Assembly (NCBI RefSeq): GCF_003991565.1
Contig: NZ_CP032819.1
Location: forward strand, 372,001-436,000
From: Butyricimonas faecalis
GTDB taxonomy: Bacteria > Bacteroidota > Bacteroidia > Bacteroidales > Marinifilaceae
DNA: 64,000 bases
Reading direction: 5' to 3'
In this document: positions 9,622 through 30,858 of the stretch, one piece after another
How positions within the stretch are numbered: position 1 is the stretch's first letter
Layout of the letters: each line of letters begins with the position of its first letter
Program-made: the position numbers and the translations under genes
The notes under the pieces: generated by a model
Told to the model about the DNA's origin: nothing
Seen by the model: only the letters and a program-made list of their open reading frames with translations
Database searches by the model: none

Positions 9622-9737
9622 GCTAAATGATAAGGAACCGAATCTGTGCATTAATTGCATAGGTTCAGTTTTTATTATGTGTCTTTTAATCTTGTGATTT
9701 TTTGTCCGCAATATATCATTAAATAGATAAAAAGCAA

Positions 9738-9745
9738 TATCTTTG
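9738..9745 (+). promoter_or_regulatory. -7 element of the hipBA operon
   Basis: TATCTTTG matches TAnnTTTG and ends 21 bp before the ATG at 9767. A TTTG occurs at 9701-9704 but is too far upstream to be its -33 partner. Confidence 0.5.
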
Positions 9746-9766
9746 CATATTATATGATGAGTTAAT

Positions 9767-10087: not shown

Positions 10088-10090
10088 ACG

Positions 10091-11353
10091 ATGAAGACGC
10101 TATATGTTTATGCCGATTTTGATTGGCTCAAGGAGACAGAACTCATTGGCGAGTTAGGTTATGAATCTCTTCGTGGCTCGGACAGCTATTGCTTTACCTT
10201 CAGCGATGAATGGTTGAAGAAACACGGGGATTTGTTCCTGAGTGATGACCTCAATAATTATCCCGGACAGCAATATACGCAACCAGAGAAAGATATATTC
10301 GGATGTTTCTCGGATGCTTTGCCGGATCGTTGGGGACGAACGCTGCTGTTGCGACGTGAACAGATTGCTGCGATGGAAGAGAAACGACCGGTACGGAGAC
10401 TGTCTTCTTTCGACTTTTTGACCGGTATTGATGACTTTTCCCGAATGGGTGCTTTCCGTTTTAAGGAATCAAAAGACGGAGGATTTATAAATGTAAGTGA
10501 GTCGTTGAAAATCCCACCTCTGACGGATATAAGGGAGTTGATTGCAGCCAGTGCGGAAATTGAGAAAAGCGAAGAGGGGAATGTCCTGCCTGACAGGAAA
10601 TGGGTTGCACAACTCGTGCAGCCCGGTTCTTCATTGGGAGGTGCAAGGCCTAAAGCCAGTGTGATAGACACGGATAAAACGCTTTATATAGCCAAGTTTC
10701 CTTCTCGCAAAGATGATTACGATGCAGGGCTTTGGGAGCATTTCAGTCATCTTCTTGCTGCAAAAGCCGGTATTAATGCTGCGAAAACCAAAATACTGGC
10801 AGCGGGAGAGAAATATCACATTTTGCTTTCTCAACGCTTCGATAGAACCCAAGAGAGAAAACGAATTCACTTTGCTTCTGCCATGACCTTATTGGGACTT
10901 AATGACGGCGATAATGCAACTACAGGACACGGCTATCTGGATATAGTCGATTTCATAATCCAGAACTGTACGAATGTGGAAGAGAATCTGCAGGAACTCT
11001 ATCGCCGTGTAGCTTTCAATATCTGCATTGGTAATAGCGATGACCATTTCCGCAATCATGGTTTTCTTTTAACGGCAAAAGGTTGGACGCTTTCTCCTGC
11101 ATACGATATGAATCCTACTTTGAATGAGTATCAGAGTCTGCTTGTCTCATCAGGCTCCAATAAGGCTGAACTGAGTATTTTGCTGGATGCTTGCGAAGAT
11201 TATATGCTTAATCGAAAAACGGCAAAAAAGATTATTTCGGAGGTGATTGAAGCGGTAAAAGGATGGCGCGAATTGGCAACACGATTGAGTATTTCCAAGA
11301 GAGAGATGGATATGTTTGCCGGAGTGTTGGATAAACGATATGATAGTCTTTAA
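10091..11353 (+). CDS. hipA: HipA Ser/Thr kinase toxin, full-length
   Basis: 420 residues containing both the N-terminal subdomain (YLPEN-like region replaced by FGCFSDALPDRWGRTLL, FDFLTGIDDFSRMGAFRF) and the kinase core: GSSLGGARPKASV loop, GNSDDHFRNHGFLL catalytic loop, SPAYDMNP Mg site. HipA kinases phosphorylate a tRNA synthetase and induce dormancy. The pairing with the HTH gene just upstream is the classical hipBA layout, in contrast to the split system 1 kb earlier. Confidence 0.9.
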   Translation: MKTLYVYADFDWLKETELIGELGYESLRGSDSYCFTFSDEWLKKHGDLFLSDDLNNYPGQQYTQPEKDIFGCFSDALPDRWGRTLLLRREQIAAMEEKRPVRRLSSFDFLTGIDDFSRMGAFRFKESKDGGFINVSESLKIPPLTDIRELIAASAEIEKSEEGNVLPDRKWVAQLVQPGSSLGGARPKASVIDTDKTLYIAKFPSRKDDYDAGLWEHFSHLLAAKAGINAAKTKILAAGEKYHILLSQRFDRTQERKRIHFASAMTLLGLNDGDNATTGHGYLDIVDFIIQNCTNVEENLQELYRRVAFNICIGNSDDHFRNHGFLLTAKGWTLSPAYDMNPTLNEYQSLLVSSGSNKAELSILLDACEDYMLNRKTAKKIISEVIEAVKGWRELATRLSISKREMDMFAGVLDKRYDSL

Positions 11354-11375
11354 TTTGATAAGGAGAAAAATAACT

Positions 11376-11975
11376 ATGAGTGGAGGATATTTTGATAGGA
11401 GCACATATGCAATACGTGAAATTGCAGATACTATGGAGCGTGATATTGCGAGAGCTTTACAGCCAAAGCCAGAGAAAGAGCATATGGATTATTGGGTAAT
11501 TTATGAGAAAGATAGCTTTAGCTCATTCCATAACTATAACAGCTATATGAAGTTTGCTAGTTATGAAGATGCAGAATCTTTTCTCCTGAGAGATAAAACT
11601 ATCGTCAAGGCAGAACAAAAATATGCAGACCTTTTTATCGCAGATGACATAATATTCCAGTCAACAACGCATAATATGTCTGATACTCCTGATGGTGAAC
11701 AAATTCCAGTATTATACTCAATCTATCATTGTTGTTATGATCGTTATCCGGATGATGCTGATGTATTGGAACTGTCAGATGAGACGATAAATGCAATGAA
11801 GGAGGCATATCGGCAAATGCGCATAGCAGAAATATATGCAACTCGCGTAGATTGGATGATGAGTGGCGATGATAGCGAAGAGAGCTTCCGAGAACGCATT
11901 AAGGGAGATTTGGCGGAGTTTGAAAAGGAATATGCTACTAAAGACTGGACATATCTTGATGAAGATGATGAATAA
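11376..11975 (+). CDS. Conserved hypothetical protein (MSGGYFD type)
   Basis: 199 residues from the ATG at 11376, chosen because aaggagaaa lies just upstream and related proteins begin MSGGxFD. The product is acidic and soluble, with IREIADTMERDIARAL near the start, a central MKFASYEDAESFLLRD stretch, and an acidic end (YLDEDDE). I recognise the N-terminus from hypothetical proteins of mobile elements but know no function. It starts 22 bp after hipA and may be in the same transcript. Confidence 0.7.
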   Translation: MSGGYFDRSTYAIREIADTMERDIARALQPKPEKEHMDYWVIYEKDSFSSFHNYNSYMKFASYEDAESFLLRDKTIVKAEQKYADLFIADDIIFQSTTHNMSDTPDGEQIPVLYSIYHCCYDRYPDDADVLELSDETINAMKEAYRQMRIAEIYATRVDWMMSGDDSEESFRERIKGDLAEFEKEYATKDWTYLDEDDE

Positions 11976-12168
11976 CATATAGAAAAACTCTCTGCGAATA
12001 ATTATTTTAGGTATAGTATTTTTCGTCCGGATGGGGGGAATGCATTCGTGTCGCAGCTACTCTGTCATAGTGATAGCCATCGCGAATCAAAGATTCATAA
12101 GCACTCAGTGGATTGTATTTGTTTTAAATGATATGCTGACAATATGTTATAAAAGACCGCAATACGTT

Positions 12169-12900
12169 TCATTCAGACAATTCACCTTTGTGATATTTTC
12201 TAACAAGGAAGTTGAAAAGGCAAGTGTGAACATTACCTAGAAAATTGCTTACAGCCATCAGCGTATTAAAAAGTTTTAGGGAATCCATCATAACTTTGCT
12301 TTCAACAATCTCTTCCTGTCGTGATTTATATAAATTCTCTGAGTCAAGATGGGTTTCAAAGTTACGTTCATCTTTCCACCAAGAAGAGGTATGTGATTGG
12401 TTTTCGAGGAGATATGTTAATTCCTGATATTGACGATTGATTACTTCCGGAAAGTACTTCATTATGGGCAGAAGTGTGTCCCATTCTGATTTCTTATGGG
12501 ATTTCTCATTAAAACCATAAAGTTTTTTGAAGCCTTCATTAAGGATTACAAACAATTTTCCGCGCATAAACCTTCGGTCATAGTCGCGGTCAGCAAGAAT
12601 GAAGTATTTCCCGGCTACCATACTGTCAATCATTGTAATAAGGACAAATAGGTAGACGGAGACAACAATTCGGTCTATTTTGTGGTATTCATCGTGTTTT
12701 TCTTTCGTATCTTCTAGAATATTTGTCATTAACGGAAGTCCCTCGGAGTATTGGGTGATGGTGCTATCTATGACAGAAATAAATTCTTTACGCTCTGATT
12801 CCGAAAGTGTTTTTCCGTTGTATTGTACCTCTTTAAACCATTGAGCATACTTGTATTCTCTGATTTGTGCGTATTGAATATCTGCAAAGTCTCCGTTCAT
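12169..12900 (-). CDS. Unrecognised helical protein beside the defence operon
   Basis: 243 residues, mostly alpha-helical by composition. A hydrophobic stretch IVVSVYLFVLITMIDSMVAG (about 78-97) could be a membrane segment or a buried helix. Later motifs include HTSSWWKDERNFETHLDSEN. I do not recognise the family. It reads on the same strand as the large operon ending at 13105 but is 204 bp beyond its last stop, so it may be a cargo gene or a distal operon member. Confidence 0.65.
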   Translation of the reverse strand: MNGDFADIQYAQIREYKYAQWFKEVQYNGKTLSESERKEFISVIDSTITQYSEGLPLMTNILEDTKEKHDEYHKIDRIVVSVYLFVLITMIDSMVAGKYFILADRDYDRRFMRGKLFVILNEGFKKLYGFNEKSHKKSEWDTLLPIMKYFPEVINRQYQELTYLLENQSHTSSWWKDERNFETHLDSENLYKSRQEEIVESKVMMDSLKLFNTLMAVSNFLGNVHTCLFNFLVRKYHKGELSE

Positions 12901-13104
12901 AATAATATGTCTTTTATCGTAACAGTTATGACCATTTTGATACTATATCTATTGTTTCGCTGTTTGGTTTGTACTTCTCCTCAATTTTTGAAATTTGTAC
13001 AACTATTGCCATCCTCCCAATTGATGTAAAATGATTTAATAATGCTGCACGAGCATTAATGTTGGTGCAGTATTATATTTGTGGGGTTAAATAAGATCCA
13101 CGAA

Positions 13105-16100
13105 TTACTGATTGCAATATACGTTTAAATCAATATTCGAGACATCTTTAATATATGAGGCGACACAACCTAATAGATTAAGTATATCTGAACTTGGATT
13201 TGAACAGCTTAATCCTGGCTGAACAATGTTGATGTGCATAATCAAATCTTTTTTCCAATTAATTTGTGAACTCAATTGTTCGAGCTCTTCTTCGGAACCT
13301 TTGAGTATTCTTGAACATTCTCTTCCTTGATATTTTTTTATTTTACGCGCAAAAAGGCGATTGAACAATTGGCGACTTTTATCTCTATCATTCCATTTTA
13401 GACATTTCTGAGCTTGTCCACAAACTTCATAAAAATTAGATATCATATTACTTACTTTTCCGCCATGTGCATATTTAAGATGAAATAGATGCATGTGTAT
13501 TGCATTATCTTCATTTTTGAATCCAATCAAGTCTGCAATTTCTCCACTACCGTCATCATCGTAAATCAAGTCAAATTGATCCCAAATATATTTAGAGAAG
13601 AAATATTGAATTGAATCTGTTTCATAAGGTACTACATGTTGTGATTCATTCTCAATTTTAGTATCAGCCCAATCAATACCTATTAATTTTTCTTGTGGGA
13701 ATGGGGCTATATCAGAATTTGTACCCACTAAATTATTGGCATAAAGGCACGAACCATCAGCAAAATAAATTACAGGAACTGCATCATTATTATTAAAATA
13801 ATCGCAAATATCATTATAAAGACGAGTCCCATATCTCATTTTTAGCTTATCTCCACTTACTTGCTTAACATGATATGTTTTGTGATTATCCCTTTCGTAG
13901 TATTCAATCATGTAAGTGAATTTAGAATCCTCTATAAGGATATTAAATGTGATTGTATTTTTTATTTCACAACTTGCCAATTCGATAGTAGCATACCATA
14001 ATTGATAGTCAATAGCATTATGTGTTAAGTAAATGCCATGCTCTGGATAATCCCTATATAGTTCTGGATCCCAGTCAATTGCAATAGGCGCAATTTGAGG
14101 TAATTCAGAGATTGTACAAACTCTTAAAGTATTTTTTATAAAATAATTTGGATCAATACTTTCATCTTCGACTAATTTTCCAATCATTCTAGCCCATTTC
14201 GTATATTCAAGTAGATTACCTCTTGTGTGACTCCAAATTTTTCCTTTTACAGAACATCCCACACTAGTTCGTTCACCATTTCTATAGCCGTTCCCGAATA
14301 AATTGTTTGCCGTTAATTGCTTTTGTTCGGTCATAGAAATGCCTTCTTGAACATCTTTACCATAATAGGACTTAAAAGAAACGTTTCCTATACGAGCTTT
14401 TCTGCCGCCAAAATTAGCAATAGCAAAACGCCTTACATCATGAAAGACACGAAATACGCAATGTCCTGAAATTTTACTGGTGTCATCTTCTCCAAAAATA
14501 GCCTTAACAATCTCGTCAGTCTCACTCAAAGTGCTGTAGACATAGGCATGGTTATAATTGGGCGTACAATATCTGTGAATGACAAGGATATTCCATAGCA
14601 AATTCTGTACACATTCAACGTTACCCCAATCAACATTTTCAATGCTTCCACCAATTACAACTAATGTGTCCCCCTCTGCAGTACTACTTCCAAACCGATA
14701 GTCATAAATTTCAGGAGATAGTATATCTTCCCATGCTTTCGGATTCCATGTGTTAGAAGTTCTATAAATTGTGGCACTTAATGGAATATTTATACCCTGA
14801 AATGGAATTTTTGATAATTCTAAATTTCCAAATGATTGAATGAATTGATTAAAATCTTTTTCTTGTTCAGTAGTCCCATCATTTAGAAGTGGCAACAAGC
14901 TATTCCAATCTGCATCTTTTGCATATAATTCTTCAAGTTCTTCCAATATAGGAGGATAAGCTATATTCGTAATAAAACTTGCATTTCCAAGATTGGAGTC
15001 ATATGAGGTACGTGTAAATCGACCTATAAATTGTAATGTAATTGGCAAACTCTGTTTGGCATCGTGAATTGCTGCAATTTTTAATTCTGGCATATCAAAT
15101 CCTTCTCCCAGCATATTAACACAAACAATAATTTTGTGCTTTTTATCTTTTATGCCGTTTAGAATTGATTTTTGATTAGGCATTGAACTAAATACTACCA
15201 CTGGATTCAAATCAGAGTATTGCTGATAAATTTCCATTACTTCCTTGGCTCTTTGTTTTGTACTACATCGAGCCATAAGAATATGATCGTATCCGTTCTC
15301 TATGTCAGAACGAAGTTGATTGACCGCCACTTCTGCAATATGTCTATCTGCTTGAATCAGATCATACTCCCTTATCGGAATAAATTTTATTGGCTTATAA
15401 TATCCTTGTGACTGCGCATCTTTTAAAGAAAAATTGTAAATAAAATCTCCTCTTAATCTTCGACTATCATTTCTGAATGGGGTAGCAGTAAATAGTGTGA
15501 CTTTCTCGTCATCGAAAGAATCAATAAATTCGCTCCATGTTTTAGCTTCAGAATGATGTGCTTCATCAATGAATAGATGGCTTATATTTGCCCGTAATAA
15601 ATCTATGATCGTTGATTCACTATTTGTAATAAGTGGCATGGTTGTAATTATAACATTAGATTTTTCGATTAAAGAATGCCATCCATTATAATCCATGCCT
15701 TCTTTGACAATTCCCACATTAGGATAGATGCAATCGCTAGCAACTATCTCATACTTTGGAAGTATTCCTAATGTGATAAATTTATTTGCCAATTGGTCTC
15801 TCAATGCATCAGATGGAACAGTTATGAGTACTTTGGGACATTGATTCGCAATGAGAATACTTAGCATTGTTTCTGTCTTTCCTGTTCCGGTTGGCATTAC
15901 TATTATATTTCTGCCATGGTGAATTTGAGCCTTAGACATAAAAGCATATATAGCTCCAAGTTGCGGAGCTCGAAGCCCAAAGATAGAATTTGGAATATCT
16001 TCCTTTCTGTAAAGAAATCTTTCTTTCCATGAAGCCGCTATTTCATTTGGATGCAAAGTTGTGAACGTTGGATGTTTTATCCATCTGATTGACAAAATAT

Positions 16101-16353
16101 TCCCTTTTAGAAATTCACTTTTACGAGGTTTTTTGTTTGTTAGTACAGCATATTGATAATTTTCAATATTAGGGTCATTCTCATCTCTCGTTAGAAGGAT
16201 GCTGACGCTATCTGTCTGTATAACAAAGGGTGATGTGGAAACAATATCAAATGTAGCTTTACTAAGCTCTTTATCATATCCGTTCAGATGTTCGACTTTG
16301 TTATTTCCACAACTCCATAAAAGTTGAACTATTTTAATAGGTAACTTTATCAT
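13105..16353 (-). CDS. SF2 DEAD/DEAH helicase with C-terminal PD-(D/E)XK-like region
   Basis: 1082 residues. Helicase motifs in order: Walker A MPTGTGKTE, DEAH in FIDEAHHSEAK, TATPFRND (motif III), SSMPNQKS/GEGFDMPELK, and motif VI QFIGRFTRTSYD. A long C-terminal half follows. At about residues 925-965 the segment DDDGSGEIADLIGF...MHLFHLKY has the spacing of a PD-(D/E)XK core, with H-x-K in place of E-x-K; this is my reading, not proven. It is the last gene of the tight operon (14 bp after the HerA gene), so it is probably the distal effector or translocase of the system. Confidence 0.85.
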   Translation of the reverse strand: MIKLPIKIVQLLWSCGNNKVEHLNGYDKELSKATFDIVSTSPFVIQTDSVSILLTRDENDPNIENYQYAVLTNKKPRKSEFLKGNILSIRWIKHPTFTTLHPNEIAASWKERFLYRKEDIPNSIFGLRAPQLGAIYAFMSKAQIHHGRNIIVMPTGTGKTETMLSILIANQCPKVLITVPSDALRDQLANKFITLGILPKYEIVASDCIYPNVGIVKEGMDYNGWHSLIEKSNVIITTMPLITNSESTIIDLLRANISHLFIDEAHHSEAKTWSEFIDSFDDEKVTLFTATPFRNDSRRLRGDFIYNFSLKDAQSQGYYKPIKFIPIREYDLIQADRHIAEVAVNQLRSDIENGYDHILMARCSTKQRAKEVMEIYQQYSDLNPVVVFSSMPNQKSILNGIKDKKHKIIVCVNMLGEGFDMPELKIAAIHDAKQSLPITLQFIGRFTRTSYDSNLGNASFITNIAYPPILEELEELYAKDADWNSLLPLLNDGTTEQEKDFNQFIQSFGNLELSKIPFQGINIPLSATIYRTSNTWNPKAWEDILSPEIYDYRFGSSTAEGDTLVVIGGSIENVDWGNVECVQNLLWNILVIHRYCTPNYNHAYVYSTLSETDEIVKAIFGEDDTSKISGHCVFRVFHDVRRFAIANFGGRKARIGNVSFKSYYGKDVQEGISMTEQKQLTANNLFGNGYRNGERTSVGCSVKGKIWSHTRGNLLEYTKWARMIGKLVEDESIDPNYFIKNTLRVCTISELPQIAPIAIDWDPELYRDYPEHGIYLTHNAIDYQLWYATIELASCEIKNTITFNILIEDSKFTYMIEYYERDNHKTYHVKQVSGDKLKMRYGTRLYNDICDYFNNNDAVPVIYFADGSCLYANNLVGTNSDIAPFPQEKLIGIDWADTKIENESQHVVPYETDSIQYFFSKYIWDQFDLIYDDDGSGEIADLIGFKNEDNAIHMHLFHLKYAHGGKVSNMISNFYEVCGQAQKCLKWNDRDKSRQLFNRLFARKIKKYQGRECSRILKGSEEELEQLSSQINWKKDLIMHINIVQPGLSCSNPSSDILNLLGCVASYIKDVSNIDLNVYCNQ

Positions 16354-16367
16354 AATCGATCAAGTAG

Positions 16368-17954
16368 TTATATTAAATGTGTCACATTAATTTTCTTATA
16401 CTTCTTGCCCATACCAAGTGCGAATGCCATTTGGTCTTTGATAATCAGTTCGCCTTTTTGGAGTCCAGCTATGGCAGTTCGTACTTCTTGCAATTCTTGC
16501 CCACTGACACCATATAGGTCTTTGATAACTTTATCGTCAATAGTCTGTTGCTTCATTATAAGTGGATATTGGGCATTAGCATAGAAATCAAACCCTTTAC
16601 TTTTGAAGCTACTCATATTTTGAGTGGCGAGAATGATACTTAATCCCTTATTTCGGCCTACAGCAATAAGGTTTCGCAACGGGCGGTTATCAAAGTCTAG
16701 CATATAGTGGGCTTCATCTATGATAGAGAAATGACGAATCTGCACCACATCCTCGTTTGTTGCCTGTTTTTCAATCTGTTCATATATGTTGTTGAGCTTT
16801 GAGATAATGAAATAGACAATAGCCTTTGCTATCGGGCCGTCTTTGGGGTAGCCGTCCATTTTTATGATGTAACAGTCATCGATAAGGCTGGCTTTATCTT
16901 CCTCTTCGAAGATATTAGCACGCACCAACTGTTTCAGTACAGATGAAATGCTGTCATCCTTTCCGGCGTCTGTCATCTTGGCTTGATATTCTTCCAACAT
17001 CATGTTGAATGTTATGGGTGCACCTTCTGTTTTCTTGTATGCCTCTACAATGGCTTCGCTCAATCGGTTATTCATATTTGCACTGGCTGATACTCGGTCG
17101 ATTGAGCATAGAGCCGAAGCCATCTCGGATGAATATAGGTTTATCTCATTGATAGGGCGGTCTGTGAGGTCCTTGAACGGAGTGAATGGTAGAGGATGCT
17201 CAATCGGGTCTATGATACAGCTGCGATCTACATCAAAATGTGAAAGCCAGTGATTGTTCTGAATGTCGCTGAACTCTCCTTTGTAGTCGAAAAGCAGGAA
17301 GTTTACCGGATATTGCGATTCTGACGATAATGTTCTGAACTGTTGCATCAACACTGCAAGCAGATTCGTTTTTCCTGAACCCGTAGCACCGGCAATAATG
17401 ATTTGTGAGTTGGTAATGTCTCGGCTGTTGATGTCGAGAGTGGCTTCCATCTCAACATCACCATAGTTGCCGATAATCAAGTTCAGCGCAGGAATATCTT
17501 TTACCATTGCCACCTTATTGTTTACTGCATATAAGATGGAATCCAAATTGTTATCAGCCAATAGGTAGTTTCTACCACGCAGCATTTCAGCGGCAATGAT
17601 GCGAGATAACACGGCATTTTGCGACCAATCTATATTCAGACTGGCGTAGCGCAATTTTAGTAACGCAGAGTACAAGGTAGATAAATCGTGCATCGTAAAG
17701 AAACTCGGAACGATACGTGCCGATGTAGCAGAGAGCTGTATATCCTTGTAATCTTCCTCCTTGCGTTCTGTAGTCAAACTCAAACCGACTATAAAGCAAA
17801 TACGCATTACTTTGTTTGTGGTTAGACTAGCACGTTTCTCTCTGTCTGCAGTGCGCGACAAGTTTATCTTACTTTCAATAAGTTCCTTTACTTGACTGAT
17901 TTCGTCAAGAATCCCCTCCATCTGACGGGTATTTGAAAAATTTATTATGCTCAT
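16368..17954 (-). CDS. DndE-like/HerA-type ATPase fusion
   Basis: 528 residues. Residues about 28-145 (NLSRTADREKRASLTTNKVM, then FIVGLSLTTE, SALLKLRY, AAEMLRGRNYLL) resemble DndE, the small DNA-binding protein of phosphorothioation systems. From about 155 on it is a HerA/FtsK-type ATPase: Walker A G189-ATGSGKT196, Walker B SIIDEAH (410-416), and the sensor region LSIILATQNMSS. HerA-type proteins form hexamers that pump DNA or activate partner nucleases. It starts 6 bp after the DndD-like gene, matching a DndD-DndE partnership. The DndE call is from pattern recall and should be tested. Confidence 0.85.
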   Translation of the reverse strand: MSIINFSNTRQMEGILDEISQVKELIESKINLSRTADREKRASLTTNKVMRICFIVGLSLTTERKEEDYKDIQLSATSARIVPSFFTMHDLSTLYSALLKLRYASLNIDWSQNAVLSRIIAAEMLRGRNYLLADNNLDSILYAVNNKVAMVKDIPALNLIIGNYGDVEMEATLDINSRDITNSQIIIAGATGSGKTNLLAVLMQQFRTLSSESQYPVNFLLFDYKGEFSDIQNNHWLSHFDVDRSCIIDPIEHPLPFTPFKDLTDRPINEINLYSSEMASALCSIDRVSASANMNNRLSEAIVEAYKKTEGAPITFNMMLEEYQAKMTDAGKDDSISSVLKQLVRANIFEEEDKASLIDDCYIIKMDGYPKDGPIAKAIVYFIISKLNNIYEQIEKQATNEDVVQIRHFSIIDEAHYMLDFDNRPLRNLIAVGRNKGLSIILATQNMSSFKSKGFDFYANAQYPLIMKQQTIDDKVIKDLYGVSGQELQEVRTAIAGLQKGELIIKDQMAFALGMGKKYKKINVTHLI

Positions 17955-17960
17955 AACTGT

Positions 17961-19961
17961 CTACTGATTAAGGGATATTCCAAAATAGCCTTCATCTATG
18001 GTTGTATTTTGTTCCTCAACATTACGATGCAGAGTATATGTCTTCGATATGAATGGCTCTAGTTTGATGTAGTCGCTATCCGTACGTATTTCAGATGTGG
18101 TACAGAGCAGAATAGTCTGTTCAGCCAACTGTGGGAAATATTCTTCCATCAAAGCGTCACGGCTTTCATTATCCAACACACCCATCACGGTATCAATCAT
18201 AACAGGCGGATTGTAGTCGCCAAGGTTGCGCAGCACTTTTAGCAACACCTGTATGAATATCTGTTTGGATGCGGCATTCAGTTGGTTTAACGATATTTCA
18301 TTACCGGCACTATGATATAGCTTGATGTTGAAATTCTCCATGCTGTCCGACAATTCCACACGTCCAACGTGTCCTTTGTAAGATACAAGCAAACGGTTGA
18401 GCTGCGACTGCATCTCTGTTTCTATCTGTGCTTTTTTCTTCTTCAACAGATTGTCGGCAACCTTATCAAAGAATGGACGCAATTTAACAAGTGTGTCAAA
18501 TTTTACATCCGGTTCTTGCTGTATTTGTACATCGTATTGGTGGATTCGTTTTTCCAAACGCTGAATTTCGTTTTTGAGATTATCCTCTTGCGTTTTCAAC
18601 TTTTCCAGAGTACGTTTGGATTCTTCATAATTGGCAATTAGCATATTGTTGCCACCTGCCTGTGTCTGTTCAAGTGTGCGCTTCTCTGTTCTGAGATTAT
18701 CCAGATTGGCAAGTTTTATTTCCATATCCTGTCTTTTGCGGTCGATGGAAACAAATTGGTTTCCATTACCCTTTTTCGGCAGTTCTCGGAGTACATCTAC
18801 CTCCGTAGTGTTCAGGTAGTCGTATGGGTCTGTTGCATTGGTTGTATTCTGCATGGCTACAATATGTGAAACCACGTTTTCTTCATCCACCGCTTGACTG
18901 CATAGCGACAGTTCTTTTAAATAATCTATAATTTTTGACGTTACATCACGAAGTGTCTCAATCGGATAGGCACCGGTGCTCTGTTTTTGGAGTTGTTCCT
19001 TTATTCGTAATATATTGTTGATTTCCTGAGAAAGGTTGGAGGCCAATTTGGGAAGGAACACATTGATTTCTATGTTGTCTATAAATGCCTTTAAGTTTTC
19101 TGCATAAGTGGCAGCTTCCTCAGTTATGGCTCGTATCTTACCGTCAACGTCCTGTATACGTTTGCTTAGGTTGGCAGCCTGTTGTGCACCATCTTTAGCT
19201 CGCTGGTATTCATCTTCCACCGATGACATATATTTATACAACCTGTCTTGCTCTGCAAGGCAAGTGTTCAAATCAATTACCAACTGCTCTTTCTGATTGC
19301 ATAACGAGTTGTATTCTTTGGCTTCTTTTTCTGCTTCTAATCGTTGCTCTGCCCACTCCTGTTGTAATTTCTCTGCTGCACGTTTCAGTTGCAGATACTT
19401 TTTGAAGCCAAGCACATTCTCAAAGTTGTCGCGTATGGTCTGCTGAAAGACATTCTTTTTCAGTAACTCGCTTGACTGCATCGCATCAAACAGAAAATAC
19501 TGGCTCAATTCCTGCGGCAGGTTGGCCTTGATTATCTTGCTGATTTCCTGTTCAGCCCGCACCCTCTCTTTGGGTGCAGTCATTGTGCCATACACATACA
19601 TATTGCCGTTCATGTTCAGCGATACACTTTCAAGCGGACGACCTTGTGGATTAAGCTGGTATATGCGTTTTAGGATATACTTCTGTTGCTGACCAAGCAC
19701 TTTGCCAACAAAGGTGATTTGCAGACTGATTTCTGGCTTCACCCGATTGACTGCCCCTTGATTGAGCAATTCCATAAAGTGTTCCTTGTTCTCTATTTTC
19801 AATCCATACAATGCACCGCTTATAGCTTCGAACAGGGTGGTTTTACCGCCACCGTTTGAACCACCGATGAGTATAATCGGGCGGTCGTCATCTACCGTCA
19901 AGTCGAGGTCGAGCGACAGGTAGGTCTTGAAGTTGCTAATCTTTATTCTTTGTATGAGCAT
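17961..19961 (-). CDS. DndD-like SMC-family ATPase
   Basis: 666 residues with an SMC/Rad50 layout: N-terminal Walker A G33-GSNGGGKT41, a coiled coil rich in E, K and Q (about 190-530), and a C-terminal Walker B region PVMIDTVMGVLD followed by QTILLCTTSE. The motif LPQELSQYFLFDAMQ (148-162) corresponds to the FFDGE-type motif of DndD. DndD couples ATP hydrolysis to DNA handling in dnd clusters; here no sulfur-transfer genes accompany it, so it presumably serves restriction or sensing. It lies 13 bp after the small gene and 6 bp before the HerA gene. Confidence 0.87.
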   Translation of the reverse strand: MLIQRIKISNFKTYLSLDLDLTVDDDRPIILIGGSNGGGKTTLFEAISGALYGLKIENKEHFMELLNQGAVNRVKPEISLQITFVGKVLGQQQKYILKRIYQLNPQGRPLESVSLNMNGNMYVYGTMTAPKERVRAEQEISKIIKANLPQELSQYFLFDAMQSSELLKKNVFQQTIRDNFENVLGFKKYLQLKRAAEKLQQEWAEQRLEAEKEAKEYNSLCNQKEQLVIDLNTCLAEQDRLYKYMSSVEDEYQRAKDGAQQAANLSKRIQDVDGKIRAITEEAATYAENLKAFIDNIEINVFLPKLASNLSQEINNILRIKEQLQKQSTGAYPIETLRDVTSKIIDYLKELSLCSQAVDEENVVSHIVAMQNTTNATDPYDYLNTTEVDVLRELPKKGNGNQFVSIDRKRQDMEIKLANLDNLRTEKRTLEQTQAGGNNMLIANYEESKRTLEKLKTQEDNLKNEIQRLEKRIHQYDVQIQQEPDVKFDTLVKLRPFFDKVADNLLKKKKAQIETEMQSQLNRLLVSYKGHVGRVELSDSMENFNIKLYHSAGNEISLNQLNAASKQIFIQVLLKVLRNLGDYNPPVMIDTVMGVLDNESRDALMEEYFPQLAEQTILLCTTSEIRTDSDYIKLEPFISKTYTLHRNVEEQNTTIDEGYFGISLNQ

Positions 19962-19974
19962 GGCGTAAATTCAT

Positions 19975-20193
19975 TTATTGACGTATTTTCTGTATGGCGT
20001 TGCGGATTATCTCTTCCGTATCGCCATCATTCATCTCTATTACATCTACTTTCTTGGCATGGTAGGCTTTCAAAATGTCCTCACTCAGCCAATCAAAATC
20101 AATATCTTCGGTAGCGCAGATAGCTTCTATCATTGCAAGATCATCCTTGCGGATGCCGTAATGCACAAATTTAGGGTCTATTCCTTTTGCCAT
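19975..20193 (-). CDS. Small protein of DNA-modification cluster
   Basis: 72 residues (MAKGIDPKFVHYGIRKDDLA start, ending IRNAIQKIRQ), acidic in the middle (DIDFDWLSEDIL). It sits between res and the DndD-like gene with gaps of 5 and 13 bp, so it is clearly part of the operon. I recall small proteins of this kind annotated only as associated with DNA-modification systems; no activity is known to me. An adaptor between the restriction enzyme and the ATPases is possible, but this is inference. Confidence 0.78.
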   Translation of the reverse strand: MAKGIDPKFVHYGIRKDDLAMIEAICATEDIDFDWLSEDILKAYHAKKVDVIEMNDGDTEEIIRNAIQKIRQ

Positions 20194-20198
20194 AATAC

Positions 20199-22562
20199 TT
20201 ATGCGTTTTGTGGATAAAAACAGTTCCAGTTCAATGTATCTGTGGTATTCTCAATAGGAAGGGGAGAGTACAGCCAGTTCTCGCCTTGTTGTAAGATCAC
20301 ACCGCCCGACAATGGTGTTTCGTCTGATGTGTTTTCTTTGATGTATTGCAACAATGCGTTATGCTTGTTGTGCGCAAATGCGTCACTGCCTGCACTTTTG
20401 GTGTCGAACAGATAAATATGACCGTTTTTCATGCGGATGATAAAGTCCACGTAAAACAACGACTTACCATTTTCATTGTCGGTGCTGTATTCTATGGCGT
20501 AATGCTGTTTGCCATTGTCTCCATTCTTGTACCACCAATCTATATATTGTTCATTTTGCTCCAAATAAGCTATGAAGTTCTTTTCCGGATTTGATGCTTG
20601 ATTGAGTTGTACAAATGGCAGAAGTGCGTGATTCCGACTTTCTTCTATATGATTGGTGTCATTGTCGTAAGTACGTTCTTCAGGCACCTCCCAATCGTAT
20701 TTTTTGAATACTCTCTTGGCTGCAGATGCTTTCTTGGCTCTATCGCGCTGTCTGGCATATTTTTCCAGCGCCGAGTCTATAATGCGGTCAAACTTAGGCT
20801 TGTTCAAATGATATAACACCACCTTTTTTGCGTCTGTGTCGAAGATACCGAAGAAGTCGGCCAATATTTCAAGCAGATAACTTGCAATTTTGTCAGCGCG
20901 ACCTTTACTCTCGAATTGATGCCCTTTTGTGGCGATGTATGCCATAAACACGCGGTCAATCTCAGTAGCTTTTCTTGCGTATTTTACGGTATCAACTTCT
21001 AATATCTGTTCCTCGTTCTGGAAATGTACGTCTTGCGGTATCTCAATGTTGATGTTCTTGACATCAAGGCGCAAAGAGTTGGTTACCTTTTTCCTGTTTT
21101 CATTGATTTTTAGGTCATCAGTCTCAGGTAATGGACCGCTTTCGTCATTAGTATTATCCAGCTTGGCCAATTCCTCTAACGAGAACAGTAAATTGCCTTC
21201 TGCAAAGTCCCAGAAATGTCGCGCTTCATCATAGAGCACTTTGCGAAAGTCAGGTCCCAAATAGTTACGTTCTATATTGGGACGTTCCGCATAGCAGGCT
21301 GGTAACCATACATTTTTCAAATTCTCACGGCGGTAGGCTGTAACAGTGTTGTTCAGGATATAGTCGGCATCGGCTGTGACGATTTGTATCTTGTCTTTAG
21401 CTATATCAGTAAACACATAACCCACATTGAGCATCTCTTTGGGATAATGCTTCTGTTCCGGCATACGCATAATACGACCAACAGTCTGAATAGTAAACTG
21501 GTCGCTTTGCAGCTTGCGGAATATAAGTAGCACGGCAGCGCGAGGACAGTCCCAACCCAAGGCGATAGCTTCTTTGAAAAGCAGTACCTCAGTCAAGTTG
21601 TCAGGCTTTTCTAAATCGGTCAGATTCTCTTTCTCATTTGCAAGCCATATCGCCAGACGGTGGTTGTCGGTGGTAATACCACACATCACTTCAAGATACT
21701 TCTTTACCTGATCGGCTATGGCAGCATCTTCCGTCGTCATATTTTCTTTTGTATCGTTAGGCAGCTGAATGAGTAGCAAAGGGTTGATGTCTGAACCTAC
21801 TGACTTATATGCTTCTGCTATTTGGTTACGTTTATCCGAAGCCGCTTTGATAAGGTTGGCATTAAGTTCCAGCTCATCGCTGAAATTCAGTTCTATCTCC
21901 GGGTTGAGTACCACCTCTTTCTTAATCATTTCGGCGGCTATCACATCCTGACGATACACCGTTACTTTTTCCTTTGGGTTGGCGGTTTTAGGTGTGGCGG
22001 AGATGCGGATTTCCACCATAGGATTGATTCTGTCAAGCACGGCAGCAGACTTGTCGGCTGTCTTCGACCAGAACATGTGCTCCTCGTCAATGATAGCTAC
22101 AATGGGCAGGCCGAAGTCTTCTTTCGTTTTATAGGTTATTTCGTAGAGCGAGAGCGAACAATCACCCTCACGCACCATTACATTACTCTCTTTGTTCACA
22201 CTTTCCCAGTTTACGAAAAGTATTTCACCGGGGCGGACTCCCTCGTTTTGGTCAAGCTCGTCAAACATCACCGGGCGCAGTGTACGTGTCTCCTCAAAAG
22301 CCTCTTTCAGTTTTTCGTAACTCTGTATGTGCAACTTGCGTGGGGCAAACCATATAAATGCGACTTCTTGATAACGACTGTCACCACGGTCGTGCAGTTC
22401 ATCCATCAGACCGGCAAGCATCTGACAAGCCATTACAGTTTTTCCGGCACCAGTCGTTGCTTCAAACACCAGTTTATTACGTTGTCCGCCTGCATTCAGT
22501 AGACGGATAGTCTTGTCAATCAATTCGGCTACTGCTCTCTGCTGATATACTAAATTCTTCAT
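20199..22562 (-). CDS. res: Type III restriction enzyme Res subunit
   Basis: 787 residues. SF2 translocase motifs: Walker A E34-ATTGAGKT42, IIDEEHMFW (motif II), ISATPKTAN, KEAIALGWDCPRA and VGRIMRMPEQ (motif VI). The C-terminal region has a PD-(D/E)XK nuclease core in VDFIIRMKNGHIYLFDTKS, with D-x-K as DTK. Type III Res uses ATP to communicate along DNA between two inversely oriented unmodified sites and then cuts. It is partnered with the Mod gene at the head of the operon, but a RhuM-family gene is inserted between them. The start overlaps the RhuM stop as ATGA. Confidence 0.92.
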   Translation of the reverse strand: MKNLVYQQRAVAELIDKTIRLLNAGGQRNKLVFEATTGAGKTVMACQMLAGLMDELHDRGDSRYQEVAFIWFAPRKLHIQSYEKLKEAFEETRTLRPVMFDELDQNEGVRPGEILFVNWESVNKESNVMVREGDCSLSLYEITYKTKEDFGLPIVAIIDEEHMFWSKTADKSAAVLDRINPMVEIRISATPKTANPKEKVTVYRQDVIAAEMIKKEVVLNPEIELNFSDELELNANLIKAASDKRNQIAEAYKSVGSDINPLLLIQLPNDTKENMTTEDAAIADQVKKYLEVMCGITTDNHRLAIWLANEKENLTDLEKPDNLTEVLLFKEAIALGWDCPRAAVLLIFRKLQSDQFTIQTVGRIMRMPEQKHYPKEMLNVGYVFTDIAKDKIQIVTADADYILNNTVTAYRRENLKNVWLPACYAERPNIERNYLGPDFRKVLYDEARHFWDFAEGNLLFSLEELAKLDNTNDESGPLPETDDLKINENRKKVTNSLRLDVKNINIEIPQDVHFQNEEQILEVDTVKYARKATEIDRVFMAYIATKGHQFESKGRADKIASYLLEILADFFGIFDTDAKKVVLYHLNKPKFDRIIDSALEKYARQRDRAKKASAAKRVFKKYDWEVPEERTYDNDTNHIEESRNHALLPFVQLNQASNPEKNFIAYLEQNEQYIDWWYKNGDNGKQHYAIEYSTDNENGKSLFYVDFIIRMKNGHIYLFDTKSAGSDAFAHNKHNALLQYIKENTSDETPLSGGVILQQGENWLYSPLPIENTTDTLNWNCFYPQNA

Positions 22563-23641
22563 TGCTTCTTGTCCTTTTTGTTCCCATGACTCTTGTTTTC
22601 AATCTCTTTCATTTCCAACAGGAAACGGTCGTAGTCCGATAAAAACAGTTGGTCTTGTATGATTCTGTATTTTTCAAATTCCGTTTCCGCGTGCAATCGT
22701 GCTATTTCTGCACTTACACGCCCGGCATCTTTCAGCAGACCGTATTCAAAGAGATTGATAAAATTATTCAGACGTTGCTCCCAGTCTGCCATTGTCAACG
22801 GAATGTGGCGCAGGGTCATTGTTTCAGCAAAATCAAGATAAGCCGTAACCATACGTTCCAATTGTCCCATTTCGACATCAGAAAGGTAATTCTTTGCTAT
22901 TGTCACATCGCTTTTCTTGATTTTGCCATAGGGGGCATCTGCCCAAGTTGTCAGTCCCATGTGTTCTTTGGCTGCATCAGCCCGTTGCACTATGAGTTCG
23001 GCTGCTGTATGACCATGGACGGCAAAGTGCATCTTGTTCTGTACGGTAGCATAAAAACGGTGGGTGGCCAATGCTGTCTTGTCGTAGTCTATGGCGGTAG
23101 CGTATAAATCGGTTATCTTTTGATAGAACAGGCGTTCGCTGATGCGTATCTCACGGATGCGTTCCAGTTGCTCCTCGAAATACTTATCTGTCAGAAAAGT
23201 TCCGCGTTTCAGCCTTTCCGAATCCATTACCCAGCCTTTGATGGTGTATTCCTTGGCAATGCCATTTACCCATTTTCTGAATTGTACGGCTTTCTCGGAA
23301 TTGACTTTGAAGCCGACAGCAATAATCATTTCCAATGAATAGTGGTTCGTAGTGTATTGTTTGCCGTCAGGAGCAGTTATTCGAAATTTTCGAATAACTG
23401 CCGTTTCCTGCAACTCGCTGTCCGAGAATATTTTCTTGATGTGATAGTTGATGGTGTGTACTTCCACACCGTATAGCATCGCCATCAGTTTCTGCGTGAG
23501 CCAGATGTTTTCATCTTCATAACGTATCTCTATCTGCTGCTCGTCATTACCGACAGATGCCACATAGTTCAGGTATTCGGCTGCACTGCTGCGTACCGTC
23601 ACTTGTTCTTTTTTCTTTTTGTGCTTCTCCTGCTCGCTCAT
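22559..23641 (-). CDS. RhuM-family protein
   Basis: 360 residues. Family hallmarks: EIRYEDENIWLTQKLMAMLYGV, HIKKIFSDSEL, the ITAPDGKQYTTNHYSLEMII region and VGFKVNSEKAVQFRKWVN. The C-terminal half is helical and ends in a lysine-rich tail. RhuM proteins are named after a Salmonella gene and often occur within restriction or mobile loci; their biochemical role is unclear. Here it overlaps Mod as TAATG and Res as ATGA, so it is translated as part of the type III unit. Confidence 0.88.
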   Translation of the reverse strand: MSEQEKHKKKKEQVTVRSSAAEYLNYVASVGNDEQQIEIRYEDENIWLTQKLMAMLYGVEVHTINYHIKKIFSDSELQETAVIRKFRITAPDGKQYTTNHYSLEMIIAVGFKVNSEKAVQFRKWVNGIAKEYTIKGWVMDSERLKRGTFLTDKYFEEQLERIREIRISERLFYQKITDLYATAIDYDKTALATHRFYATVQNKMHFAVHGHTAAELIVQRADAAKEHMGLTTWADAPYGKIKKSDVTIAKNYLSDVEMGQLERMVTAYLDFAETMTLRHIPLTMADWEQRLNNFINLFEYGLLKDAGRVSAEIARLHAETEFEKYRIIQDQLFLSDYDRFLLEMKEIENKSHGNKKDKKQ

Positions 23642-25509
23642 TACAAATCCTCCTCTTCATCAAAGTTCAACATTCCATTCGGCATATTCTCCTGAACGGT
23701 TGTTTTTGTATCGTCAGAGATAATAAGCTCGTCTTTTTTCTTAGGTAGTATGCGACGGTAGGCATTGTATATGGCTTGTGGCAGGGCACAAAGTTGCACC
23801 TTGTCTTGAACTTCTTCAAATTCGCCTTCCCATGGGTCTTCGCTTGGAGAGAACACATACACGAGCATCCTGTCCTCGTAATCTGTATTCTGAATCAAGT
23901 CTACCAACTGCTGCACAGCTTCTTCGCGGTAGATAATCATCATACGCTTTTTGCCGTTGTCGAAGTAGCGGAATACATTTTTGTAGGTCTGTTGCTCGCC
24001 AAATTTCTGCTGCTCGGTATAAAGATCTTCTTTGATGCAAAGCATATCGGTGGAGAGACTCATCAGCTGACGCATATTTTTCATGCTTCGGCCTCTGCCG
24101 ACAAAACTTGTGCGATAGTAGCGCAATGTGTTACCTGTCAAGCCCGGAACTTCTTCCCCTTTCGGAGTGGTGTAGCCATTGATTACACGTTTGTTGCGTT
24201 CGTAGGTTACTTCTTCGCAGATGTTATTCTCGTTATTGGTTACAAGAATACATTTACGATGACCGCCATCTTCGGCATTCAGTTGCATGGTAGCGTGAAG
24301 AGTGGTGCCGCTGCCGGCAAAGAAGTCGAGGATGGTTTTACAATCTGGTATAGTTTGTAACATATAACGCAGGATGGAAGTTGGTTTGGGATAATCAAAC
24401 GGAATATCTTCAAATATACTTCCTAGTTCTTTTTTAGCATTGTCGTTTGAAAAAATATTATTTACTAATTGAATTGATTGAACTGGTTTAACTCGTTCTT
24501 TTTCAATTACAACATAATTGTTTCCTGCTTTTTCAATAGATACCCTTTGGTAGGTTTTTGTGTAAATTCGTTTTCCGTTTTTCCCGTTTTTAACAACAAT
24601 AAACCCATTGTTATATCCAAAATTGAATAAATCTTCACTCCATCGCCATGCCCAGTCTGCTCTTTTATGCTTACCTTTCAGACGTTCCAAATATTGAGCG
24701 TAATTCCCTCCTGGATAGAATGTTTCACCATTGATGGTTATGGGATAATCTAGACTTGAACTATAAGACAAACTGTCATAATCCAATGTTTGATTCAACT
24801 TGTATTTTCCTCGTTGTTTATAGTATTCATCTATATTCTTAAAGCCTTCGTCATTATGGGGAATACCAGCAATAGTACACTGGGACTCACTTTTAGCATA
24901 TATCATTAAGTAATCATGATTTTGAGCTATTTTATCAGTGGTTTTTCCTGACGCTTTGGTTATTCTTGGAAGTATTGCTATAAAATTTTCAACCCCCAAT
25001 ATTTCATCACATAATAACTTCAATTGCGCCTGTTCGTTATCGTCAATCGAGATGAATATCACTCCTTTATCTGAAAGCAGCTGTTTGGCAATACGCAAAC
25101 GCTTGTTTATGAATGACAGCCATTTGGAGTGGCGATAAGAATCTTCTTTGTCTACGAAGCGGTCGTTATAGACGAAGTCGTTATTGCCGGTATTGTACGG
25201 AGGATCGATATAGATGACATCAATCTTGCCCTCGTGCGTGTAGGCAAGGGTGGTGAGGGCTTCGAGATTATCGCCTTCGATAAGGATATGGTTTGGTGCA
25301 TCGCCATCGGGACTGATGATGGCTTTTGATGCATCTTCAACCAATACGGGCAATTCTTCGCGTAGACGTTCCTCCACATCTTCCGGCTTATCTTCCCACA
25401 CCAATCCGTATCTCTTCTGCTTGCGCAACAGTCCTAACAACTCAGATTTCTCTTCGTTGGTCAAACCATCAAGCTGCAATATCCTGTTGTATAATTCTTT
25501 TTTGTTCAT
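23641..25509 (-). CDS. mod: Type III DNA methyltransferase Mod
   Basis: 622 residues. The beta-class N6-adenine methyltransferase order is seen: motif IV D102-PPY105 in YIDPPYNTGNNDF, a long variable middle that would hold target recognition, then motif I ILDFFAGSGTTLHA around residue 393. Mod carries the sequence specificity of type III systems, methylating one strand and guiding Res. No simple-sequence repeat that could drive phase variation is visible within it. It starts 27 bp after the XRE gene and is followed without gap by the RhuM gene. Confidence 0.93.
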   Translation of the reverse strand: MNKKELYNRILQLDGLTNEEKSELLGLLRKQKRYGLVWEDKPEDVEERLREELPVLVEDASKAIISPDGDAPNHILIEGDNLEALTTLAYTHEGKIDVIYIDPPYNTGNNDFVYNDRFVDKEDSYRHSKWLSFINKRLRIAKQLLSDKGVIFISIDDNEQAQLKLLCDEILGVENFIAILPRITKASGKTTDKIAQNHDYLMIYAKSESQCTIAGIPHNDEGFKNIDEYYKQRGKYKLNQTLDYDSLSYSSSLDYPITINGETFYPGGNYAQYLERLKGKHKRADWAWRWSEDLFNFGYNNGFIVVKNGKNGKRIYTKTYQRVSIEKAGNNYVVIEKERVKPVQSIQLVNNIFSNDNAKKELGSIFEDIPFDYPKPTSILRYMLQTIPDCKTILDFFAGSGTTLHATMQLNAEDGGHRKCILVTNNENNICEEVTYERNKRVINGYTTPKGEEVPGLTGNTLRYYRTSFVGRGRSMKNMRQLMSLSTDMLCIKEDLYTEQQKFGEQQTYKNVFRYFDNGKKRMMIIYREEAVQQLVDLIQNTDYEDRMLVYVFSPSEDPWEGEFEEVQDKVQLCALPQAIYNAYRRILPKKKDELIISDDTKTTVQENMPNGMLNFDEEEDL

Positions 25510-25536
25510 TATCTTTAAGATTAAAGATTGATGTTG

Positions 25537-25779
25537 TTATTTGACAAGTCTGACAATTTGAATACTTTCGTCCAAAGAGGAGTTCAGCAACTCCTTGACA
25601 TCAACTTCAAGTACATTGGCAATCTGTAATAATGTTTCCAGTCCCGGTTGCGAAGTATTGGTACACCATTTTGACACCGTTGCAGGATCTTTTCCTAATT
25701 GTTCAGCCAACCACTTGTTGGTTCGTTTCTTCTCCACAAGAACCACCTTAATTCGATTTATATCCTTTATAGTTTCCAT
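25537..25779 (-). CDS. XRE-family regulator heading the defence operon
   Basis: 80 residues: INRIKVVLVEKKRTNKWLAE, QLGKDPATVSKWCTN (recognition helix), LETLLQIANVLEVDVKELL. A stand-alone HTH protein directly before mod (27-bp gap) suggests a controller-type protein that delays or limits expression of the restriction genes. A minus-strand -7 element lies 29 bp upstream of its start. Confidence 0.87.
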   Translation of the reverse strand: METIKDINRIKVVLVEKKRTNKWLAEQLGKDPATVSKWCTNTSQPGLETLLQIANVLEVDVKELLNSSLDESIQIVRLVK

Positions 25780-25807
25780 TTTGGATTATATTATTTCTCT
25801 TATACTG

Positions 25808-25815
25808 CAAAAGTA
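25808..25815 (-). promoter_or_regulatory. -7 element for the XRE-mod-res-Dnd-like operon
   Basis: On the minus strand TACTTTTG fits TAnnTTTG, 28 bp before the XRE start at 25779. It is the only such element seen before the eight-gene operon. It lies in the 193-bp gap shared with the divergent gene at 25973. Confidence 0.55.
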
Positions 25816-25922
25816 ATGATTTTACTCCATTCCAGCATCATTCAAATAATATGATTTTCCATTAAAATTGCGAATTAGTTCAAGAATAATCACAAATAGG
25901 AGTTTACAACAATTGTTTTCAG

Positions 25923-25930
25923 TATCTTTG
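25923..25930 (+). promoter_or_regulatory. -7 element for the divergent gene
   Basis: TATCTTTG on the plus strand, 42 bp before the ATG at 25973. No convincing -33 TTTG is found at the expected distance. Confidence 0.5.
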
Positions 25931-25972
25931 TAACTGACAAATCACAAACAAGAACTTGGTTTATTGATAAAT

Positions 25973-27214
25973 ATGGAAGTGCATACATTGGACAATTTTC
26001 ATGATGACTTTGAAACAGGCCGTTGGATGGTTCGAAAATTTATATTACCAAATGCATCCGATTACCTTTGGGACATAGAGAATATCACATGGGCTCAAAC
26101 AGTATTAATTGATGCTTTTGGGGCAAATAGATTTTTTGATGAAGCTTCTCAAATGATAGCTAATTCAATATACCTTTTTCAGAAAGGATTTTTTGATACA
26201 GCATTTTATTCACTACGCCAATCCATTGAGCTTTCAATTGGCACACTATATCTAACAGCGAATCCGGAAAAGATGATAGAGTGGAAGAAATTAGAGCCCG
26301 GCTTTGAATCTGGTAAAATGGCTGACTTTCTACGAAAACATGAACCGGTCTTCAAAGAAATAAGAGCCAAAATCCCTGCTTTCTTTGACAATATACGTAC
26401 TGTTCAGAGAAAGACAAATAAATATGTGCATAAACAAGGCTATTCATCCTTTTATACCACACAAAGATATTCATGGTCGGATCACCGTGAAGATAAAGTT
26501 TATCTTAATATAGTTTCAGATTTTGAAGAAATTTTGAATGTGGCGATTGGTGCCGTTGCCATGTATCGTTTGGCTATAGACCCTTTACCCATTATATTAA
26601 TGGATGAAGAGTTGATGATGCGTTCCGGAGATTTTCTAACGAGACCATATTCAGAAGAATTTGTAGATAAATATATCGGCTTGGAAAATATCGAATTATA
26701 TAAACAAACTAATATCTATCAGGAATTTAAAGAAAGTATAATGTCTCATGAAAAACAAAATGAAGCAGTTTTTAATATTATTCATTGGCAAATAATAGAC
26801 AGATGCAAATTCGAAGATATAACCAAACAAATGCATTTACTGTCATATACGGATAGATTAGCAGTAGTTATTATGATGACATCTACAAAAATTCTGCAAG
26901 TGTATATTGAAGGTTGCTTCCATTACACTTCTGATGTTAAGGCGACACATTCGGATACGGTTATTGGTACTTCATATTATGAAGATTTCTTCGCGAATAG
27001 AGGTAATAACAATTTTAATGTTCCATTCAAAGATGGCTCGTATATTTCGAGAATTAAAATTTGCGATAAATTCTCTTACATAGAAACCAATACATTTCTT
27101 GATGATTCAGAAATAGCCATATTGAACTATATCGCCAAGATATTTGAAGAATCATATATTAAGCAAGAGAAAGAGTTAAAGAATTGGTTGGAAGAGCATA
27201 AAAAAAGAATTTGA
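25973..27214 (+). CDS. Unrecognised protein divergent from the defence operon
   Basis: 413 residues from the ATG at 25973 (MEVHTLDNFHDDF); a TTG three codons earlier is less likely. The N-terminal half has a helical stretch SIYLFQKGFFDTAFYSLRQS with RQSIELSIG and KTNKYVHKQGYS, reminiscent of HEPN or AbiV-like helical folds, but I could not confirm the conserved R-x4-6-H RNase motif. The rest gives no match to a family I know. It is divergent from the type III/Dnd-like operon, has its own promoter element and is closed by a strong hairpin, so it stands as a separate unit of the island. Confidence 0.7.
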   Translation: MEVHTLDNFHDDFETGRWMVRKFILPNASDYLWDIENITWAQTVLIDAFGANRFFDEASQMIANSIYLFQKGFFDTAFYSLRQSIELSIGTLYLTANPEKMIEWKKLEPGFESGKMADFLRKHEPVFKEIRAKIPAFFDNIRTVQRKTNKYVHKQGYSSFYTTQRYSWSDHREDKVYLNIVSDFEEILNVAIGAVAMYRLAIDPLPIILMDEELMMRSGDFLTRPYSEEFVDKYIGLENIELYKQTNIYQEFKESIMSHEKQNEAVFNIIHWQIIDRCKFEDITKQMHLLSYTDRLAVVIMMTSTKILQVYIEGCFHYTSDVKATHSDTVIGTSYYEDFFANRGNNNFNVPFKDGSYISRIKICDKFSYIETNTFLDDSEIAILNYIAKIFEESYIKQEKELKNWLEEHKKRI

Positions 27215-30856: not shown

Positions 30857-30858
30857 AG

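Follow-up and report, generated by a model that had tools for sequence, protein, structure and literature searches.

A type III restriction-modification operon with a Dnd-type DndD-DndE::HerA core in Butyricimonas faecalis, a candidate composite defence system

The 64,000-nucleotide stretch of Butyricimonas faecalis DNA analysed here (the window; contig NZ_CP032819.1 of assembly GCF_003991565.1, positions 372,001 to 436,000) carries at 13105-25779, on the minus strand, eight open and tightly packed reading frames (ORFs). In the direction of the strand, they encode an XRE-type regulator (25537..25779; 80 amino acids, aa; Pfam HTH_3, 39 bits), a type III Mod predicted to be an N6-adenine methyltransferase (23641..25509; 622 aa; PF01555, N6_N4_Mtase, 106 bits; PADLOC MTase_III), a RhuM-family protein inserted between mod and res (22559..23641; 360 aa; PF13310, 347 bits), a type III-like Res, in which a superfamily 2 (SF2) helicase is followed by a C-terminal PD-(D/E)xK-like motif (20199..22562; 787 aa; PF04851, ResIII, 51 bits), a small protein of the Sp-DndD family, Sp (19975..20193; 72 aa; PF20306, 35.2 bits, cut-off 27.2), a DndD-like coiled-coil ABC ATPase (17961..19961; 666 aa; AAA_23, 70 bits; PADLOC DndD, 211 bits), a DndE::HerA fusion (16368..17954; 528 aa; predicted DndE-like fold at ~1-140, HerA/DndH-C ATPase at ~155-528; DUF87, 39 bits), and a second SF2 helicase with a C-terminal PD-(D/E)xK-like motif (13105..16353; 1082 aa; PF04851, ResIII, 72 bits). 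All were scanned with Pfam, PADLOC and NCBIfam profiles. From the coordinates, XRE and Mod are separated by 27 base pairs (bp), Mod and RhuM overlap by 1 bp, RhuM and Res by 4 bp, and the following intervals measure 5 bp (Res/Sp), 13 bp (Sp/DndD), 6 bp (DndD/HerA) and 14 bp (HerA/SF2). The eight packed genes described by an earlier, sequence-only reading of the locus are therefore all present and open, with gaps of at most 27 bp. A scan of 12850-26050 for promoters and terminators gave results near shuffled expectation, and has not been used.

The type III half has its predicted motifs in place. D102PPY105 and F397AGSGT402 of Mod are kept in at least 95% of 59 aligned rows, and the Walker A (37-42), DExH (159-162) and D706...D720xK722 motifs of Res in at least 95% of 68. 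A Mod with N6-methyltransferase motifs lies beside a Res with an SF2 motor, as in type III restriction-modification (R-M) genes; the PD-(D/E)xK nuclease is assigned by motif alone.

The second half consists of Sp, DndD and the HerA protein. DndD scores 183.3 bits against TIGR03185, below the curated cut-off of 245.85, and has no match at 0.001 among PDB sequences. Catalytic motifs are kept at 95% or more in 79 DndD and 74 HerA rows, and conservation over the 79 DndD rows and a tree place the window protein in a DndD subfamily with PVMIDTVMGVL. A CxC zinc hook was considered and rejected, being missing in the window protein and found in 3 of the 79 rows. HMM (hidden Markov model) scans of the whole HerA protein with the three profile sets detected no DndE, and hhalign placed its N-terminus in register with the N-termini of the related proteins at loci L030-L033, described below, with no significance (P 0.67). 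Folded alone, the N-terminus was predicted to adopt a DndE-like fold, so that a DndE fold would pair with DndD; this segment appears to fold like DndE, the fold test alone being clear. The ATPase gave HerA fold matches and is nearest to DndH, residues 148-508 aligning to residues 1332-1700 of the 1715 of DndH (best PADLOC match). No domain of a nuclease or toxin was detected by HMM scans in Sp, DndD or the HerA protein. The HerA-DUF4297 and Sir2-HerA defence systems pair HerA with a nuclease or NADase subunit of their own; Pfam finds no DUF4297 or Sir2 among the operon proteins, and Res could be the partner of the HerA ATPase. Sp-DndD exceeds its cut-off in seven of 395 genomes sampled from the class, and every Sp adjoins a DndD gene.

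Relatives were collected by a species-level scan (one genome per species, DndD alignment), which used two DndD peptide patterns and hence samples this DndD subfamily. It returned 125 relatives, the best 80 of which were kept as loci; a gene was scored present when tblastn matched the window protein, and loci were counted only where the contig was long enough. Mod is retained in 51/51 loci, Res in 63/63, Sp in 76/76 and HerA in 67/67. Between match ends the median spacing is 36.5 bp for Res-Sp, 16 bp for Sp-DndD and 18 bp for DndD-HerA, and single loci carry inserts of up to 2.9 kb. By title, all 80 loci belong to Bacteroidota except L097 ("uncultured bacterium") and L054, a metagenome-assembled genome labelled Clostridium. 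A DndD search gave 5344 matches; identity is 96-100% in the 120 listed with the best scores, which, where a genus is given, belong to Phocaeicola, Parabacteroides, Bacteroides, Tannerella and Fermentimonas. No relative was found among 64 pattern matches in viral contigs, and plasmids yielded at E 1e-20 four records, all of DndD only, at 22.8-24.6% identity. An unverified, unannotated 15.6-kb "Bacteriophage sp." record (MT835906.1; L139) encodes Mod, Res, Sp, DndD and HerA; it is probably either a piece of bacterial DNA or a cargo region.

What lies beyond HerA changes from locus to locus. The 255 ORFs of at least 120 aa found within 6 kb past HerA, taken from 61 of the 80 loci and from L026 and L028 (63 in all), fall into 225 clusters, the biggest of four rows. 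Retention on one side and turnover on the other define a conserved core of five genes, Mod-Res-Sp-DndD-DndE::HerA, the remaining genes being cargo. The core recurs in relatives whose DndD is only 44% identical, and the arrangement is therefore not due to chance. The gene order foreseen as a check by the sequence-only reading has thus proved conserved, for five genes and not for eight. RhuM, found between mod and res in 4/51 loci, is an optional accessory gene. The SF2 helicase, earlier assigned to a second effector arm, follows HerA in 1/42 loci with at least 6 kb past DndD (L044), and also in L035, where the sequence past DndD is shorter than 6 kb. Both were rejected as core parts. SF2 relatives occur in genomes with no DndD match (G165, G095, G304 and G135), residues E938IAD941...H958xK960...Q980 are invariant across 6 rows, and the four matches among PDB sequences are XPB/RAD25-type helicases; the protein is probably a separate defence gene, a variable downstream passenger. 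One SF2 relative lies at L137:639-12431, in a same-strand cluster with reverse transcriptase-like and MukB-like proteins.

Genes for sulfur marking have been searched for. DndC exceeds its cut-off in none of 16 genomes holding the system (the window's own genome and those of 15 of the 80 loci), the single sub-threshold match, in G455, reaching 22.7 bits. DndB has no match in the window's own genome, the one genome searched for it. The DndA family is represented there by two cysteine desulfurases, both below cut-off, and is similarly sub-threshold in 14/14 control genomes; the sole PAPS-reductase-family match lies ~1.7 Mb off. What was first noticed from the sequence, Dnd-type ATPases coupled to a methylation system with phosphorothioation genes absent, is a recurring arrangement. 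The reported absence of dndA, dndB and dndC holds for the last two, and for dndA in the sense of the sub-threshold desulfurases.

Related cores do lie behind dndC elsewhere. DndC is encoded at L031, in the family of the window (TIGR03183, 450 bits), at L033 (462 bits) and, 68% identical, at L032 (G007, same genus as the window; 4656-11817), and in all three dndD and a HerA homologue follow; the dndC-dndD-HerA operon of L032 corresponds, on the sulfur side, to the system of the window. In L031 residues 5-107 of the HerA protein match TIGR03184 (DndE) at a sub-threshold score; DndD exceeds its cut-off, and next comes a ParB-like gene, replaced in L033 by a gene for a DGQHR protein. L147 (G142; 3742-10506) encodes DndC (375 bits), Sp-DndD, DndD (275 bits), a 513-aa FtsK-model protein, the N-terminus of which looks DndE-like by eye, and DGQHR_dnd_1. 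Sp-DndD is thus placed inside a phosphorothioation operon. At L030 (G302; 6750-12798) Sp-DndD-DndE::HerA follows a 734-aa protein with weak sigma-factor matches, which by eye we take to be perhaps a HARE-HTH protein. In a tree, a branch with 100/99 support separates 21 type III-linked DndDs from four linked to dndC, the latter side having very long branches. The occurrence of a related DndD-DndE::HerA core behind dndC suggests that the type III cassette occupies here the place of the sulfur enzyme. The cleanest reading would be a partner swap, one kind of DNA-handling core having been joined to DndC in some lineages and to a type III Mod-Res in this one.

Phosphorothioation (PT) systems in which DndE is fused to HerA form clade 3 of Dnd in the work of Rakesh, Aravind and Krishnan (PMC10853773), which describes a DndD/CxC-DndE core and HerA-DndE fusions beside DndD-related ATPases, and envisages that Dnd-type systems without DndC may use another modification. 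With clade 3 the window shares the DndD-DndE::HerA core, and at least one dndC operon (L147) has Sp-DndD as well; it differs in carrying type III Mod-Res and no DndC, no DndB and no DndA over cut-off, and in its DndD (PVMIDTVMG), which sits on a branch apart from the four dndC-linked proteins. The same text describes CxC-ABC/PbeABCD systems, in which cytosine methylases stand in place of PT. A DndD-like ABC ATPase, DndE, a small protein and a base methylation replacing PT are common to these and to the window; however, the methylases are there C5/N4 cytosine enzymes, and here a predicted adenine type III Mod-Res, the window DndD lacks the CxC hook and DndE is fused to HerA. PbeABCD features an HKD nuclease-SF2 fusion; no HKD/PLD family is among the Pfam matches of the window SF2 or Res, and the PADLOC PbeA matches of the SF2 protein have their best stretches within the helicase part. 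Unlike the eight-domain DndH, the 528-aa HerA protein aligns by its C-terminal HerA part alone and has none of the other domains, and neither DndF nor DndG is among the matches listed for the ten proteins scanned. From ordinary type III R-M the window differs by the conserved Sp-DndD-DndE::HerA genes; XRE-Mod-Res is common to both, and close relatives lack the module. The accessible text of PMC10853773 makes no mention of a pairing with an adenine type III Mod-Res, and literature searches returned no recognisable description of a Mod-Res-Sp-DndD-HerA operon, an earlier mention of which may exist in the 2020 classification of ABC ATPases.

Over the 51 rows with all five proteins, the Spearman correlation of pairwise identities is 0.88 for DndD-HerA, 0.81 for DndD-Res, 0.75 for DndD-Sp and 0.58 for DndD-Mod. 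As an example, L040 and L072 share 97% of DndD and 95% of HerA residues, but only 47% of Res and 48% of Mod. Similarly, the window and L037 are 98% identical in Res and 97% in DndD, and Mod drops to 13-23% in windows 181-390, to rise again to at least 90%. Mod residues ~180-390 are probably an exchanged recognition region, and in some pairs the comparison indicates that the whole Mod-Res cassette is exchanged behind DndD and HerA more than 90% identical. Probably, therefore, the self mark varies under motors that stay the same. Upstream of Mod-Res, L131 and L134 have relatives of XRE (73% and 62% identical), and the regulator probably travels with the cassette.

The operon is plausibly a type III R-M system equipped with a mark-independent DndD-DndE::HerA motor, hence a composite defence operon, a reading that we hold with slightly better than even confidence. 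According to this reading, Mod would mark host sites and Mod-Res would sense unmarked sites on invading DNA. DndD, a putative Rad50/SMC-like clamp, and DndE::HerA, a putative DNA-binding ring translocase, would capture and pump the invading DNA, and Sp would regulate or bridge the two. Capture and pumping would make restriction processive, and the cuts would be supplied by Res, since no nuclease domain has been found in the module. Specificity would reside in Mod, the module reading neither sequence nor mark. The motor probably belongs to the restriction arm. Relatives of Mod-Res occur alone, and the core is hence probably not needed for methylation chemistry; the likeness of the HerA domain to DndH, and the tolerance of the module for differing Mods, place it on the restriction side. 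DndH-type HerA points in that direction because DndFGH is treated as a restricting system in PMC10853773. Placement on this side, the role of Sp and contact between the halves are all matters that we infer.

Several observations weigh against the composite. Mod-Res is found solo in G281 (as a second locus, Res 73-74% identical), G058 and G238, in which the 3.8-8.3 kb past Res lack the Sp-DndD-HerA module; it is thus a cassette also living by itself. (G391 has a contig that stops 230 bp past Res, and G305 a Res in two pieces, both genomes being without a DndD match.) In a tree of 71 Res rows, with L131-L134 labelled as solo, the label needs three changes, and the Res of L131, 73% identical, is nested among composite ones, beside L038; the tree was built by a quick method, and L134 sits on a very long branch. 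In turn, the module or its DndD also occurs with no Mod-Res beside it. At E 1e-10, 16 of the 395 class genomes have any DndD match, 11 of them at 22-30% identity; this subfamily is confined to five (G000, G281, G277, G315 and G444), and in G315 a TPR (tetratricopeptide repeat) protein and a tyrosyl-tRNA synthetase lie upstream of the module, Mod-Res does not adjoin it, and the genome has no Res match at E 1e-20. Among 326 genomes of the phylum, 4 have a DndD match. Two of one genus, G689 and G697, encode DndDs that are 36-38% identical, and the 12-20 kb around lack matches to Sp, HerA and Mod-Res. Their position inside the type III-linked clade of the tree suggests losses, and the lone DndDs, at L159:7914-9980 and L160:6092-8251, possibly represent domestication or a decayed system. 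In samples not picked by pattern, Mod-Res therefore stands beside DndD in 4/7 genomes with this subfamily, those of the class (all but G315) making up the four. In a family sample of 56 genomes, a full-length match of this subfamily is found in the window's own genome only, G011 and G046 having short pieces. Some loci have short or split core genes, part of them at contig ends. The splitting in related genomes that the sequence-only reading named as contrary to its proposal has thus been partly observed, in solo Mod-Res (L131, L132 and L133) and in DndD without Mod-Res (G315, G689 and G697), next to the retention seen among the 80 loci.

Another objection concerns the arm served by the motor. 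In PT systems the modification machine includes DndD-DndE, which is needed for the mark itself, and this favours a role in modification. The motor might scan DNA and load Mod, as DndDE serve DndC, for example to remethylate a daughter duplex left unmarked after one-strand type III methylation, and Sp-DndD stands in L147 directly behind dndC, a place taken in the window by Mod-Res. We consider it unlikely, because type III Mods of the same family exist without such helpers, the HerA domain is nearest to a restriction protein, and the module stays near-constant while Mod changes. Quite unlikely is also an independent back-up effector, either abortive or anti-replication, restrained by Sp and fired on inhibition of Mod-Res; a negative-regulator role has been proposed for small proteins of related systems in PMC10853773, and G315 has a module with no Mod-Res beside it, but HMM scans of the window's Sp, DndD and HerA proteins detected nothing resembling a nuclease or toxin. 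That two unrelated systems, which do occur apart, are joined merely through linkage on mobile islands is improbable given the unbroken retention of Res and Mod, the mostly short gaps and DndD identities of 44-100%, with downstream genes turning over.

A wider proposal, in which our confidence falls a little short of even, is that DndD-DndE::HerA(-Sp) is a mark-agnostic DNA-handling module moved between DndC sulfur marking and type III adenine methylation. Such a move would imply that its job is not sulfur chemistry, and might rather be DNA capture and translocation for self/non-self enforcement; the type III-linked version would be a distinct defence type of Bacteroidota.

Upstream of XRE, NikA- and MobA-type mobilization genes are found at 27844-29600, AAA_25 and HTH_17 proteins are also encoded within 27844-34656, and a tyrosine integrase gene (32273-33388) adjoins mnmE. 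Similarity to G007 breaks off at 34656, where mnmE has its 3' end; G009 remains similar through the integrase region. No direct repeat of at least 13 bases, the kind sought as att repeats, is shared by 34380-34760 and 1-34000, and the second end of the island has not been found. The genes flanking the operon (12169-12900 and 25964-27214, the latter with a weak DUF5677 match) are present, among loci L026-L113, in Bacteroides nordii WAL 11050 (L044) only. Farther off, a YhcG/DUF1016 PD-DExK protein is followed by two opposed HsdS genes around a tyrosine recombinase (3491-4348), and the region (865-6059) has the look of an invertible specificity locus of a type I R-M system. Two paired ORFs at 7983-9258 match HipA, one its N-terminal and the other its C-terminal part; a full HipA-type ORF lies at 10091-11353, with a helix-turn-helix ORF at 9767-10087.

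The operon provides a natural setting to ask what Dnd motors do without sulfur enzymes. It offers a concrete example, found repeatedly, of Dnd-type motors whose partner for modification is predicted to be an adenine methyltransferase, one with relatives lacking such helpers. It could separate "helps modify" from "helps restrict", a separation hard to obtain in PT systems because DndD-DndE is needed there for the mark itself. In the gut, the operon may act as a barrier to DNA transfer among Bacteroidales.

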